Assembly (NCBI GenBank): GCA_947564645.1
Contig: CANOCU010000026.1
Coordinates: 1 to 51,884, forward strand
DNA: 51,884 nt
Source: an uncultured Lachnospiraceae bacterium
GTDB lineage: Bacteria > Bacillota > Clostridia > Lachnospirales > Lachnospiraceae
Direction: 5' to 3'
Shown one piece after another: positions 17,646 to 22,316 of the stretch. A program made the translations under genes and the position numbers. The stretch's first letter is position 1. Each line of letters begins with the position of its first letter. Below the pieces are notes generated by a model. The model had not been told where the DNA came from and made no database searches. It saw nothing but the letters and a program-made list of their open reading frames with translations.

Positions 17646-17776
17646 AATCAATACCTGTACCTTTCCCTGAGATGAATCTGTTCCCGTGATCAGAGGATAT
17701 GAACCTTATAGAGTGTCCGATCCTTGAACATTGATGGAAAATCCGTTTCCTGTTTCTATAAGTAATGACAAGTAAT

Positions 17777-17811
17777 TATAGTAAACGAAATTGCTAATGA
17801 CGTTAACTATA
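17777..17811 (+). repeat. 35-nt near-palindromic intergenic element, copy B
   Basis: Ends TATAGTAAACG and CGTTAACTATA, core AAATTGCTAATGA. It has the same length and layout as copy A, in the gap between the divergent coiled-coil and GH31 genes. Confidence 0.9.
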
Positions 17812-17926
17812 AAAAGATATACAGAATTGTAATCTATATAACTGCTTATTTAGGTTATCGTCAGAGCAGGGGCATTTCTTAAGGTTTCGTCAAAAAAAGG
17901 TTAATCTGTTAAACGGATCTGAAATA

Positions 17927-17935
17927 TGGTACAAT
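17927..17935 (+). promoter_or_regulatory. Extended -10 promoter candidate for the GH31 gene
   Basis: TGG immediately before TACAAT (17930-17935) forms an extended -10 element. The hexamer 17 nt upstream (TGTTAA) is a poor -35 match. The leader would be about 100 nt. Confidence 0.4.
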
Positions 17936-18041
17936 CTTCTAAGTCACAAGATGAAAAGACAGGATAAAAACAAGATAAAAAGACGGGATGAACAAACAGG
18001 AGTAAGCGACAGGATCAGATCGCAGGATGGAGGAGAGAAAG

Positions 18042-20387
18042 ATGGCAAAAAAGGTAGAAGTAAGCTACAATCCGCAGCTGGGGTATCTGGCGACGGTCTT
18101 TACGCATGATTTTGATTTTCTGACGGGGGTCAGAAGCTATGAGGTGCATGACTGCGGCGTGACTTTTGAGGTGGAGACATACCGCAAAAACAGGGCGGTG
18201 GTGACGATCGGACTTGTGGCCGCAAATGCGGTCAGATTCCAGATGTTCCCTTATGGGAATACGGACTGTGTCCGCAACGAGGTGTTTTCTTTTGCGGAGC
18301 AGGAGAAGGCGGCGGTCTCAGAGACAGAGGATCTGATCTGCATACGCGGCGGGCAGGTGGAGGTGCGGATCAGGAAGCATCCCTGGGAGGTCAGCTATTA
18401 TTATGACGGCCGGCTGATCACCAAAGAGCAGGTGCGGGATTCCAATGTGGACAATATGTGTAAGAATCTGCCCATCGGTTTTACACTGGATGAAAAGAAA
18501 CGGGTGCGGAAGGTACACGAGACGATGTATCTGTATGCCGATGAGAGTTTCTATGGATTCGGGGAGAAATTTACGGATTTTGATAAAAGAGGACAGACGA
18601 TCCACTGCTGGCAGACGGATGCGCTCAGCACCAACACGGAGCGGTCTTACAAGAACCATCCCTTCTTTATAAGCAGCCGGGGCTACGCCATGCTGTTAAA
18701 CAGTTTCACCAGATCCCGCTTCGATATGGGGACGGTCTCCGGCGTGGCCTACAATATGGAGGTGGAAGACAGCTATCTGGACTATACGCTTCTCTTTGAC
18801 ACGGAGCCCAAAGCGCTGCTGCAGGACTACACCGCCATGACCGGAGAAGTGCCGATGATCCCCAAGTGGGCGTTTGGTCTTTGGATGTCCAGGTGTTCCT
18901 ACCAGACGCAGGAGGAGATTTACGAGGTAGTGCGAAAGGCCGAGGAGCATAAGATCAAGATCGATGTGATCCATATCGACGGCTGGCAGAGAAAGCCGGA
19001 TGCCGGCGCATGGGAGTGGGATCTGGAGCGGTTTCCCGATCCGGCCGGTATGATCCGTTATCTGAAAGAGCATCATATCCGTCTGAGTCTCTGGATCTTT
19101 CCTTATATCGACGAACAGTCGGCTTTCTTCGAGATGGCCCGGGAAAAAGGGTATCTGGTGAAGGACGGGGAAGGGCAGCCGGTCAGATTCCATGCAACGG
19201 CCATGAGTGAGTCCAGGGTGGGCTGTTTTGATTTCACCAATCCGGACTTTCTGGCATGGTATAAGGAGCGGGTGAAAGCCGTGATCAAACTGGGGGTGGG
19301 CGTCATCAAGACGGACTTTTCGGAGGCGGTTCCGGAGTACGCGGTCTATCACGACGGTTTAAACGGTGTGCAGGGCCATAATAAGCTCACATTCCTCTAT
19401 GCGAAGACGATCTACGATATCATGAAGGAAGTCAAGGCAGAAAGCGGGGAATGTCCGATGCTGTGGGGACGCAGCGGCTATGCCGGCTCCCATACGATAC
19501 CGGCGGCCTGGGCGGGAGATTCCTCTACCCATCTGAACAACCATGCTTCCATCCTGAGGGGCGGCCTGAGCATTGCGATGAGCGGTGTTCCGTTCTGGGG
19601 CTTTGATATGGGTGGTTTCTATAATACCGATCATGACGGCTATGAGTGTCCGCCGGAGACGGAAGAATATGTGCGCAGCTGTCAGTTCGGACTGTTTGGC
19701 CCTTTAAGCAGATGCCACGGGAAGACGCCCAGGGAGCCGTGGAACTTCGGAACGGATGCGGAAGCGGTATTTAAGAAGTGCAATGATGTCAGGCATCGTC
19801 TGCTGCCTTATCTGTATACCGCCGCCCATCAGGCTCATACGGATTCCGTGCCGATGCTGCGTCCGCTTTTGATGGAATATCCGCAGGACCGGAATGTCAG
19901 ACAGATCGATCTGGAATATTTTCTGGGAGACAGCCTGCTTGTGGCGCCGGTGTTCGATCAGGACGAATTTGCCCTGTATCTGCCGAAAGGACGCTGGGTG
20001 GACTTCCATACGCATGAGATGACGGAGGGCGGCGGCTGGATCCGGCCTGAGATCTGTCAGGACCATATTCCGGTCTATATCCGGGAGGATGCGATGATCC
20101 CGCTGCTGCTCCAGGTGCCGGAGGACAGTGAGGCGCCGTACGGCGAGATGGAACTGTTTGTACACCTTGCTTCGAGGATAGAGGAGAAGGTGTATGATGT
20201 TGACAGGGAATACTACTTTAACGCCGGGTGTGCGGAAGATGGTACGGTTACAATCGATACCGACCTTCCGGCGGTGCGGCTTATGCTGTATACAGCGCAC
20301 AGACCGGCGGCGGTGACGGTCAACGGCCGTAAAGCGAAGACAGATGAGATGGGTGATAACAGAGGTCTGATATGTCATATTTTTTGA
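18042..20387 (+). CDS. Glycoside hydrolase family 31, alpha-xylosidase-like (YicI type)
   Basis: 781-aa enzyme of GH31, probably cytoplasmic since no signal peptide is present. The catalytic nucleophile is D425 in IKTDFSEAVP (YicI has KTDFGE) and the acid/base is D493 in AWAGDSST. WGRSGYAGSHTIPAAW and LRGGLSIAMSGVPFWGFDMG are typical of the YicI/alpha-xylosidase branch. It likely releases alpha-xylose or alpha-glucose from oligosaccharides. ATG 18042 is preceded by GGAGGAGA; an in-frame ATG at 18027 lies above that site. No transporter is next to it. Confidence 0.93.
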   Translation: MAKKVEVSYNPQLGYLATVFTHDFDFLTGVRSYEVHDCGVTFEVETYRKNRAVVTIGLVAANAVRFQMFPYGNTDCVRNEVFSFAEQEKAAVSETEDLICIRGGQVEVRIRKHPWEVSYYYDGRLITKEQVRDSNVDNMCKNLPIGFTLDEKKRVRKVHETMYLYADESFYGFGEKFTDFDKRGQTIHCWQTDALSTNTERSYKNHPFFISSRGYAMLLNSFTRSRFDMGTVSGVAYNMEVEDSYLDYTLLFDTEPKALLQDYTAMTGEVPMIPKWAFGLWMSRCSYQTQEEIYEVVRKAEEHKIKIDVIHIDGWQRKPDAGAWEWDLERFPDPAGMIRYLKEHHIRLSLWIFPYIDEQSAFFEMAREKGYLVKDGEGQPVRFHATAMSESRVGCFDFTNPDFLAWYKERVKAVIKLGVGVIKTDFSEAVPEYAVYHDGLNGVQGHNKLTFLYAKTIYDIMKEVKAESGECPMLWGRSGYAGSHTIPAAWAGDSSTHLNNHASILRGGLSIAMSGVPFWGFDMGGFYNTDHDGYECPPETEEYVRSCQFGLFGPLSRCHGKTPREPWNFGTDAEAVFKKCNDVRHRLLPYLYTAAHQAHTDSVPMLRPLLMEYPQDRNVRQIDLEYFLGDSLLVAPVFDQDEFALYLPKGRWVDFHTHEMTEGGGWIRPEICQDHIPVYIREDAMIPLLLQVPEDSEAPYGEMELFVHLASRIEEKVYDVDREYYFNAGCAEDGTVTIDTDLPAVRLMLYTAHRPAAVTVNGRKAKTDEMGDNRGLICHIF

Positions 20388-20411
20388 CGTGATCCTATTG
20401 AAAATATGACA
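20373..20411. promoter_or_regulatory. 11-bp inverted repeat around the XRE-module promoter, candidate operator
   Basis: TGTCATATTTT (20373-20383) and AAAATATGACA (20401-20411) are perfect inverted copies, separated by 17 nt, with about 28 bp between arm centres. The right arm covers the -35 box of the promoter at 20398-20426, and the pair spans the GH31 stop codon. This is the position expected for autoregulation by the XRE protein encoded 130 bp downstream. It could also act as an AT-rich terminator of the GH31 gene. Confidence 0.6.
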
Positions 20412-20426
20412 GAAATGCTATATACT
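20398..20426 (+). promoter_or_regulatory. SigmaA-type promoter of the XRE-ImmA-PIN module
   Basis: TTGAAA (20398-20403), 17-nt spacer, TATACT (20421-20426). Transcription should start near 20433, giving a leader of about 110 nt. Confidence 0.75.
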
Positions 20427-20541
20427 CTTATTGTATAGAAAAAGAAAACCTATGGCATCATGATATAGGCATCCCTCTTTTCATATGGATCTGCATCGCA
20501 GCAGACAGGGATGCAGGTAAGAGGTGGAAGGGGGATCTACC

Positions 20542-20877
20542 ATGAGCGCTGTTTACGAGAAATTAAAAGAAATGAGAGAACAGGCCGGTTTGAGGCAGGG
20601 ACAGATCGCCGCATTTTTGGGCGTTACACAGACGTATATTTCCAAAGTCGAGACGGGAGAGCGGAATCTTACGGTAGAACAACTGGAAAGTCTGGTTCAT
20701 CTTTATGGCTACAGTCTGTCTTCCTTTACTGACAGCCGGAATCATGTGCAGCCGATCCGGTTTGCCTTCCGGGCGCAGGACGTCAGTCAGGAAGACCTGA
20801 AGGTGATCGCGGATATCGGCCGGATCGCCGTCAACAGCCGGTTCATGGCAGATATACTGGAGGGTGCCAATGGTTGA
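20542..20877 (+). CDS. XRE-family helix-turn-helix regulator
   Basis: 111-aa protein. Residues about 5-62 form a Cro/CI-type HTH: LKEMREQAGLRQGQIAAFLG, then QTYISKVETGERNLTVEQLE. The C-terminal 45 residues (RFAFRAQDVSQEDLKVIADI) could be a dimerisation or partner-contact region. ATG 20542 has a GGAAGGGGGA Shine-Dalgarno. The last 8 nt overlap the protease gene. In XRE/ImmA pairs the regulator is often the substrate or partner of the protease, and it probably represses its own operon. Confidence 0.93.
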   Translation: MSAVYEKLKEMREQAGLRQGQIAAFLGVTQTYISKVETGERNLTVEQLESLVHLYGYSLSSFTDSRNHVQPIRFAFRAQDVSQEDLKVIADIGRIAVNSRFMADILEGANG

Positions 20878-21622
20878 TAAGCTTGATCTCAATACGAAAG
20901 CCCAGGAATTAAGGGAGATATTCGGAGAGGATGCCAATTCCCCGGTTGACATTTTTGCATTGGCAAATCAGATCGACGGATTGTCCATCGTATATTATCC
21001 CCTGGGAGACAATATCAGCGGGATGTGTGTAAAGGATGACAGCGTGAAACTGATCGCGGTCAATTCGACGATGTCATATGGCAGGCAGAGATTTTCGCTT
21101 GCACATGAGCTTTATCATCTGTATTTTGATGATCTGTCCGGCTTCCATGTTTGTGCGAAGCAATTTGACCCCGGGAGCGAGACGGAGAAAAGAGCCGATC
21201 AGTTTGCCTCTTATTTCATAGCCCCGTACAAATCCCTGAGGGCAATGGTCAGGAAGATCTGTGAGAACGGAACACTTTCGCTGCAGAACGTGATCGCTCT
21301 CGAACAGTATTTCGGAATGAGCCATCAGGCAATGCTCTGGCGGCTGATCTCGGAAGGGTATCTGAACAAGAACGACTGGGAGGCCTATGGTGCAGGGGTA
21401 GTGTCGGCGGCAAGAAGCCTTGGCTATGATGACAAACTGTACAGGCCGACGGAGGCAGCATTACAGAAGAGGACCTACGGACATTATTTGAAGCAGGTAG
21501 AGGAACTGCGTCAGAAGGATCTGGTCTCGGCCGGCAAGCTTGACGAACTGCTTTTGGATGCATTTCGGGAGGACATCGCATTTGGCGACGACAGCGAAAC
21601 AGGAGGCGAGGCATTTGACTGA
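20870..21622 (+). CDS. ImmA/IrrE family metallo-endopeptidase
   Basis: 250-aa zinc protease-like protein of the COG2856 type. The HEXXH motif is AHELYH (H79, E80, H83), and E106 in ETEKRADQFASYFIAP fits the third metal ligand. The remaining C-terminal half (about 130-250) is helical and ends in a Glu/Asp-rich tail. Known relatives cleave a cognate XRE repressor in mobile elements or stress responses. ATG 20870 has GGAGGG 6 nt upstream, inside the XRE gene. It overlaps both neighbours by 8 nt. Confidence 0.92.
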   Translation: MVDKLDLNTKAQELREIFGEDANSPVDIFALANQIDGLSIVYYPLGDNISGMCVKDDSVKLIAVNSTMSYGRQRFSLAHELYHLYFDDLSGFHVCAKQFDPGSETEKRADQFASYFIAPYKSLRAMVRKICENGTLSLQNVIALEQYFGMSHQAMLWRLISEGYLNKNDWEAYGAGVVSAARSLGYDDKLYRPTEAALQKRTYGHYLKQVEELRQKDLVSAGKLDELLLDAFREDIAFGDDSETGGEAFD

Positions 21623-22148
21623 CGGATATTTTTTTGATACGGACTGTCTCTGTGCATTTCTCTGGGTACGCGGCGAAAGCATCTTATCAAAGCTATACGC
21701 CGGACGGATCGTCCTGCCGGCGCAGGTATATGATGAGCTGAAGCGGGTTCCCCACCTGTTGAATAAAGTGGATGCCATGAAACGCAACGGTGACCTGGAT
21801 GTGGAAAGCATGGAAGTCGATTCGGCGGAATATCACGATTATCTGCAGATGACGTCGATGCCGGAAGCGGGAATGCGGATCATCGGCAAGGGTGAGGCTG
21901 CCGGCATCGCGATGGTGAAGGAAAGGGGCGGGACTCTTGCCAGTAATAATCTGAGAGATATTGCACCTTATGTCACGAAGCACCACCTTACGCACATCAC
22001 GACCGGCGATATTCTTATGGAGGCAATGGATGCCGGGTTTATCTCGGAGGCCGAGGGTAACCGGCTCTGGTCGCATATGCTTCGGAAAAGAAGAAGACTG
22101 CCCACGGCAACCTTTTCAGATTACATAAGGGACAGGCAGACACAGTAA
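21615..22148 (+). CDS. PIN-like domain protein, third gene of the XRE-ImmA module
   Basis: 177-aa protein starting at TTG 21615, with AGGAGG at 21601-21606 in ideal spacing; a longer frame upstream lies inside the protease gene. Features of PIN nucleases: YFFDTDCLCAFL with D8/D10 at the first strand, VYDEL with E41, and GKGEAAGIAMV. The usual DD of the last motif is LASNNLRDIAPYV here, so one acidic position is changed, and activity is uncertain. The 8-nt overlap with the protease gene implies co-translation. It may be the effector of the module. Confidence 0.82.
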   Translation: MTDGYFFDTDCLCAFLWVRGESILSKLYAGRIVLPAQVYDELKRVPHLLNKVDAMKRNGDLDVESMEVDSAEYHDYLQMTSMPEAGMRIIGKGEAAGIAMVKERGGTLASNNLRDIAPYVTKHHLTHITTGDILMEAMDAGFISEAEGNRLWSHMLRKRRRLPTATFSDYIRDRQTQ

Positions 22149-22190
22149 CAGTTCAGCCCAGGACTTTGCACTTGCTGCAAAGTCCGTGAG
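22145..22190 (+). repeat. Stem-loop intergenic repeat, copy 2
   Basis: Same block as 9601-9646. Here the hairpin is perfect: GGACTTTGCA (22161-22170), loop CTTGC, TGCAAAGTCC (22176-22185). It starts at the PIN gene stop codon. Confidence 0.75.
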
Positions 22191-22209
22191 AACGCATAAA
22201 GGTTGAGAA

Positions 22210-22287
22210 GAATCCGGCCTCTTTGCCGAAGGCAAACTTGGAATAGGCCGGATTCAGTAACTATGAAGCCGAAGGCTGAATAGTTAC
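22210..22287 (+). other. Two further strong hairpins with GAA loops (structured RNA or terminator region)
   Basis: First: GAATCCGGCCT (22210-22220) pairs with AGGCCGGATTC (22245-22255), and inside it TTTGCC/GGCAAA closes a GAA loop. Second: GTAACTAT (22257-22264) pairs with ATAGTTAC (22280-22287), with inner AGCC/GGCT again closing a GAA loop. Neither is followed by a clear T-run. With the hairpin at 22161-22185 this makes three stem-loops in 130 nt between the PIN gene and the zapA promoter. It may end the module transcript, or be a small RNA. Confidence 0.65.
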
Positions 22288-22316
22288 AAACGGGGTTCTG
22301 TTTTATACTTTTATAC

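Follow-up and report, generated by a model that had tools for sequence, protein, structure and literature searches.

A putative three-component toxin-antitoxin module made of an XRE regulator, an M78 protease and a PIN-domain protein in a Lachnospiraceae genome

Why would a small regulator, a zinc protease and a PIN-domain protein be encoded side by side, each gene running into the next? The question is raised by a 51,884-nt stretch of DNA (the window; contig CANOCU010000026.1, assembly GCA_947564645.1) from the 4.1 Mb genome of an uncultured Lachnospiraceae bacterium. On its forward strand, a gene for an XRE-family helix-turn-helix (HTH) protein, read from the sequence (20542-20877, ATG start, 111 aa), is followed by a gene for an M78 (COG2856, ImmA/IrrE) zinc protease (20870-21622, ATG start, 250 aa) and by a third gene, for a PIN-domain protein (21615-22148, TTG start, 177 aa). 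Both junctions are 8-nt overlaps (20870-20877 and 21615-21622). The protease gene has a Shine-Dalgarno-like GGAGGG inside the XRE gene (20859-20864) and the PIN gene a Shine-Dalgarno GGAGG inside the protease gene (21602-21606), both on the forward strand. This arrangement agrees with a preliminary description of this DNA, which had reported the two overlaps and placed each downstream Shine-Dalgarno within the preceding gene. On balance, sequence and structural modelling incline us slightly towards a three-component type II-like toxin-antitoxin module, with the XRE protein as autorepressor and antitoxin, the protease as trigger and the PIN protein as toxin. What the sequences display is a conserved operon, an operator, intact active sites, a modelled PIN fold, co-inheritance and preferential loss of the PIN gene.

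What is the third protein? Scans of the window protein against Pfam, NCBIfam and PHROGs gave zero matches at E up to 1. Its AlphaFold model (predicted local distance difference test, pLDDT, 92) matches VapC-type PIN nucleases in structure comparison, and on this modelled basis we assign it a PIN fold. The preliminary description had called the protein PIN-like and had allowed that no PIN fold might be found; the model displays one. Profile searches named the two other proteins, through HTH_3 and Peptidase_M78, and the third was named only via its model. Among the 65 members of its family, a Pfam PIN match occurs in 10 (best 0.0023), in competition with weak matches to AAA_17 in 21 (0.013) and to nSTAND_NTPase4 in 16 (0.018). 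Because the weak matches are split in this way, Pfam alone would not name the family. In an alignment of 80 loci the PIN catalytic residues are nearly invariant; in the window protein, D8, E41, E94 and D115 are presumably those of the active site. VapC toxins cut tRNA or rRNA, and the third protein is likewise a predicted RNase toxin.

The two upstream proteins are more readily named by profiles. The XRE protein matches HTH_3 (1.4e-15), in agreement with its earlier description as a regulator, and two of its residues are conserved in nearly all aligned proteins (R77 in 79/80, N98 in 78/80). It is predicted to be an autorepressor and antitoxin component. The protease matches Peptidase_M78 (3e-13). 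Its H79-E80-x-x-H83 motif and E106, already described as the intact active site of a COG2856-type protease, are conserved in all 80 aligned proteases. The protease also carries an extra C-terminal tail, about residues 185-250, whose residues are conserved as well as the active site. A comparison of the tail with PDB sequences gave zero matches, and the structure comparison rows span model residues 8-185, so that the tail is barely covered. A resemblance of the tail to UPF0175, a PIN-associated family, was considered and found unsupported (hhalign probability 16%).

Is the association of the three genes more than a local coincidence? When genome contigs were scanned using only the PIN protein as query, 182 relatives came up, and the 80 highest-scoring of these were analysed. 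A protease gene lies directly upstream of the PIN gene in 80/80 of these loci, and an XRE gene lies upstream in 78/80, the two exceptions (L037 and L046) ending at contig ends. The triplet that the preliminary description had proposed to look for in other genomes thus recurs. Its order (HTH, protease, PIN) is kept even on a Hymenobacter plasmid whose PIN protein is 27% identical; the plasmid's annotation gives the protease as two overlapping frames, each of which matches the protease profile, and the gene may be split or broken. Of 78 loci taken as free of stops in either gene, with gene starts but not stops set by homology, 76 have a protease/PIN overlap of exactly 8 nt; the exceptions are L079 (11) and L073, in which the PIN gene is broken. 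The PIN start codon is TTG in 56 and ATG in 20 of 76 loci, and a Shine-Dalgarno-like motif precedes it in 74 of 76 relatives, versus 300 of 2520 control internal ATG/TTG codons. The XRE/protease junction is variable across relatives, from -29 to 14. Pairwise distances of the three proteins are correlated (Mantel r 0.81-0.84 over 76 loci, with 0 of 2000 permutations as high). In one relative, L133, XRE and protease are fused in a single 422-aa frame (237-1502) before the PIN gene, an arrangement that may provide a link to fused XRE-COG2856 antitoxins.

The operon also appears to have its own control region, as the preliminary description had proposed. An operator of the form GTCATA-N25-TATGAC (20374-20410; GTCATATTT...AAATATGAC in the window) is conserved upstream of the XRE gene in relatives, and its distal half-site overlaps the 3' end of an alpha-glucosidase-like gene (stop at 20387). 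A promoter-like TTGAAA-N17-TATACT lies over it on the forward strand (20398-20426; 10 of 12 letters match in a consensus scan), with its -35 box inside the operator. The promoter scan of the region found 6 such sites versus a shuffled mean of 2.8, and the relatives' consensus has TTGA and letters resembling TATAAT in the corresponding position. The half-sites are 32-33 bp apart, about 3 helical turns, a spacing that suggests binding by at least two XRE dimers or by a larger assembly. We looked for GTCAT-N27/28-ATGAC in 78 loci, namely the window and 77 of the 80 relatives, with at least 100 nt upstream and near-duplicates included (L037 and L046, which are without XRE, and L029, without upstream sequence, were left out). 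In 70 of them it lies no farther than 170 nt ahead of XRE; the remainder of these loci, 807,401 bases in all, has 1 occurrence. In a second set of loci (L123-L139 and L144; records partly shared, window included), the operator was found in 18/18. GTCATA-N25/26-TATGAC occurs at a single place in the window's own genome, and a control pattern at 4. The operator-to-XRE distance in the window, 131 nt, is the longest among the 70 loci, and some 85 nt of the sequence from promoter to XRE (20430-20518) are unaligned in L028, a Lachnospiraceae metagenome-assembled genome (MAG) that is the nearest relative at the locus among named records.

Which of the three products is harmful? For a count of decayed modules, 121 loci including the window were merged into 106 clusters at 98% identity, and three cut by contig ends (L037, L046 and L151) were set aside, leaving 103. 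Of these, 93 are intact, three are remnants (L026, L140 and L141), and six have a broken PIN gene next to intact XRE and protease genes (L027, L042, L073, L131, L139 and L144), even though a PIN-based locus search is biased against seeing PIN loss. Among 12 loci found through close proteases, ten have a PIN gene and two a broken one (G253 and G269); of these two, G269 adds to the count a broken PIN gene behind an intact protease. A more distant set consists of 19 of 49 lower-scoring family proteases (18 fetched loci, L220-L237, and L002 from the window's own genome); as it was found by protease, protease loss would not show there. XRE lies upstream of the protease in 16 of the 19. Behind the protease, 13 loci have an intact PIN-like gene, as judged by motif, four a broken one (L220, L225, L227 and L229) and one a Fic-like stretch (L222); in L230 the gene is of unclear kind. 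The four broken genes follow intact XRE and protease genes. Since PIN breaks preferentially while XRE and protease survive, the PIN protein would be the harmful part, that is, the toxin.

It is tempting to assemble these elements into a mechanism. The XRE protein would bind the operator over the -35 box and repress the operon; it would also serve as main antitoxin, probably by forming a complex with the PIN protein. A stress such as single-stranded DNA (ssDNA) might trigger the M78 protease, by analogy with PprI and CapP. Cleavage of XRE by the protease would then free or unmask the PIN RNase and derepress the operon. The PIN protein would in turn cut RNA, likely tRNA or rRNA as VapC does, and stop growth. 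The biological use of such a module is likely abortive phage defence or stress dormancy. The suggestion of a protease-released toxin or defence module in the preliminary description is thus borne out in part, through the decay pattern that favours PIN as toxin, whereas release by the protease and a role in defence are predictions.

Several observations weigh against this reading. The exact operator is missing in 8 of the 78 loci: L035, L036, L054 and L038 have a distal arm GTTAT instead of GTCAT, L103 has a spacing of 29, nothing resembling an operator was found upstream of XRE in L087 and L092, and the closest relative, L028, keeps only the proximal half, without the distal arm. Eight distant sister loci whose upstream sequence is long enough were searched as well, and the operator was found in 0 of the 8. 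The correlated protein distances cannot tell co-transfer from plain vertical descent. In one of the 103 clusters the decay is reversed, L033 having an intact PIN gene and broken XRE and protease genes, on a short, low-coverage MAG contig. The Hymenobacter plasmid, with a full-length PIN behind a possibly split protease, may be another reverse case. Some PIN lesions are one stop or frameshift in draft assemblies and could be assembly errors; those of L131 and L139 are small. Finally, the PIN gene was never found with XRE alone among the relatives; the protease therefore seems integral, which fits a protease that is itself the antitoxin equally well.

This last arrangement is the alternative that survives best, though we hold it to be a good deal less probable. 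The protease would act as direct antitoxin, as in RosmerTA or RipAB, its C-terminal tail holding the PIN protein, and XRE would only repress the operon. The antitoxins RmrA and RipB have an ImmA-type domain, which in many or all cases shares a single protein with an HTH (PMC10440598, PMC12795458). The constant protease/PIN overlap, a tail as conserved as the active site and the XRE-protease fusion of L133 point in the same direction. However, XRE accompanies the PIN gene as constantly as the protease does, and the tail has no recognised relative among PDB sequences or, at the low hhalign probability given above, in UPF0175.

It is rather improbable that XRE and protease form a stress switch of the ImmR-ImmA or CapH-CapP type, which would induce the PIN gene by transcription only, without neutralisation of its product. 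With an overlap into the protease gene, a Shine-Dalgarno sequence of its own and a TTG or ATG start, the PIN gene would yield some protein each time the operon is expressed; its preferential loss, moreover, argues for a harmful product. We give very little credence to the reverse assignment, in which the protease would be the toxin, XRE the antitoxin and the third gene an accessory. It follows the view taken of unfused XRE-COG2856 pairs in Geobacillus, where such a pair and a third gene of unnamed kind form one operon (PMC6929052), but here XRE and protease remain intact in six clusters with a broken PIN gene versus one with the reverse. Least probable of all, the PIN protein would process RNA under stress control without being toxic: cellular nucleases, among them Nob1 and exosome subunits, do have PIN domains, as the structure comparison rows list, but patchy distribution and preferential decay are unlike a housekeeping gene.

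How is the module distributed, and what surrounds it? The PIN gene was found in 13 of 299 genomes of the family by a single-protein search and in 46 of 398 genomes of the phylum by a profile search, as well as in 3 IMG/VR contigs and 2 PLSDB records; a search of phage records found 0. The module occurs in many Firmicutes, and the tree of relatives spans Lachnospiraceae, other Clostridia, Streptococcus and Mycoplasmatota. The single rows labelled Sutterella, Synergistes and Spirochaetales come from MAGs, in which misbinning is possible; cultured carriers include Pseudobutyrivibrio and Blautia. Around the window's module, the genes recognised by eye are alpha-glucosidase-like, zapA, U32 peptidase and ruvB. 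Flanks vary and the triplet is constant: among L017-L152, only L028 shares both flanking genes with the window. In 18 zapA loci (17 same-genus genomes and its own), the module lies within 1.5 kb on either side only in the window, and L184 and L185 are missing the segment matching 17764-22315, which comprises the alpha-glucosidase-like gene and the module. Together these genes resemble accessory DNA inserted ahead of zapA in this genus. A mobile-element repressor with a passenger PIN gene was judged unlikely: the immediate neighbours, assessed by eye, are not phage or transfer genes, a judgement confined to these neighbours, as the whole window was not scanned for integrases.

The module ends with the PIN stop codon at 22148, and not at 22287 as given in the preliminary description. 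Beyond it, from 22150 to about 22290, lies a dispersed intergenic repeat with hairpins, which has 27 matches in the window's own genome, including nine copies besides the window's with 99-100% identity over 136-141 bp. It is unaligned at the corresponding place in L028 and looks like a small mobile repeat. A terminator scan of the module region found no site on the forward strand.

The same genome harbours a second triplet of XRE, M78 and third gene (contig C31, L002 971-2982), whose third protein is a different PIN-like protein with a D-T-D motif near its start and zero Pfam matches. Most of the 18 further proteases of the family (L220-L237) likewise precede PIN-like genes, of several barely alignable families. 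The PIN identity of these other third-gene families rests on motif, Pfam having given zero PIN matches; hhalign against family A4 gave probabilities of 60% for A11, 3.4% for A9 (a collinear match of 143 columns) and 1.5% for A10. In L222, the M78 protein is a 455-aa open reading frame whose later part has what we take to be a Fic-like motif, which suggests a different effector fused to the protease. As a tentative extension, which we regard as doubtful but attractive, XRE-M78 pairs might form a general DNA-damage-sensing chassis for barely alignable PIN-like toxins. In the subfamily of the window, a complex would bridge the two half-sites three turns apart, cutting of XRE would lift repression and release the toxin at once, and the modules would make up a broad protease-triggered abortive-infection class in Firmicutes. 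If the toxin-antitoxin reading of the window's module is true, M78 proteases of the ssDNA-sensing kind are linked directly to an RNase toxin, which would help explain why XRE-M78 pairs lie beside so many PIN-like genes.

How does the module compare with known systems? It shares with VapBC a VapC-type PIN fold, as modelled, and an acidic active site, the catalytic residues being presumed as above, but its partners are HTH_3 and M78 proteins and not VapB. VapB antitoxins are of the ribbon-helix-helix (RHH), AbrB or similar types. The protease resembles CapP of CapH-CapP, from the cyclic-oligonucleotide-based anti-phage signalling system (CBASS), and PprI of DdrO-PprI, proteases that cut HTH repressors with ssDNA (PMC10904395). 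Unlike in those pairs, a PIN gene follows and the protease has an unmatched C-terminal tail. No CBASS operon lies downstream in the window, the PIN gene being followed by zapA-like and U32-peptidase-like genes (both by eye).

The module also resembles RosmerTA (RmrA/RmrT) and RipAB, in which XRE and an ImmA-type domain make up the antitoxin of a variable toxin. The NetFlax work describes ImmA-domain antitoxins with PIN-like partners and a RosmerTA tested against phage (PMC10440598), and RipAB of pneumococcus pairs an XRE-ImmA antitoxin with a toxin for which the sliding clamp is the proposed target (PMC12795458). However, RipB, and RmrA as PADLOC models it, have HTH and protease in one protein, whereas the window has two overlapping genes. 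A further difference lies in the proposed targets, the sliding clamp for RipA and the membrane for the tested phage Kita RosmerTA. Also comparable is the operon of the 2019 Geobacillus survey, in which separate, unfused XRE and COG2856 genes share an operon with a third gene (PMC6929052). The survey does not identify that gene as PIN (a weak 7TMR-HDED match is given), COG2856 is taken as the toxin there, and the likeness is drawn from description. The third gene of this operon, GK3183 to GK3185, is unexplained there and may be PIN-like.

A matching layout is that of PADLOC PDC-M69, a candidate phage defence system whose components A, B and C are an HTH protein, an M78 protease and a PIN-like protein, in the same order as in the window. 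The M69B model matches the window protease (2.8e-19) and 64/64 members. The M69A model gives an equivocal result, with 0.0066 for the window XRE and hits in 55/56 members at 0.01, but lower scores than other HTH models. The M69C model gave zero matches in the window PIN at E up to 1 and matched 5/65 members. Because the window PIN is without a match to this model, it is placed in a separate subfamily. Loci fetched with the M69C model have XRE and M78 upstream in 10/12 (L113 and L114 lie near contig ends), and the window-type operator was found in 0 of the 10 with XRE. The PDC-S70 PIN model does match the window PIN (8.4e-6) and 65/65 members at 0.01. PDC-S70 is counted among single-gene systems (PMC12988326), whereas the relatives of the window PIN have the protease and XRE partners reported above. 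In the literature outside subscription journals, we found no paper naming PDC-M69 and none joining ImmA/IrrE, PIN domain and toxin-antitoxin.

The preliminary description had treated the combination as unusual. The PADLOC layout speaks against this, as does the prediction by Makarova et al. in 2009 that COG2856 proteases cut the Xre repressor or antitoxin of RelE or PIN toxins, 'a novel, three-component TAS' (PMC2701414). The window matches that prediction in its Xre-type HTH, its COG2856 protease with HEXXH and its adjacent PIN gene. The 2009 paper describes mainly Xre-COG2856 fusions beside RelE or PIN genes, whereas in the window the three genes are separate, the PIN protein belongs to a family without a match in Pfam, and an operator is defined. 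The kind of system is thus already known as a prediction, to which the present work adds a subfamily, an operator and decay evidence. The old prediction of a protease-triggered three-component toxin-antitoxin system gains a compact case, with three separate genes, one promoter and one operator.

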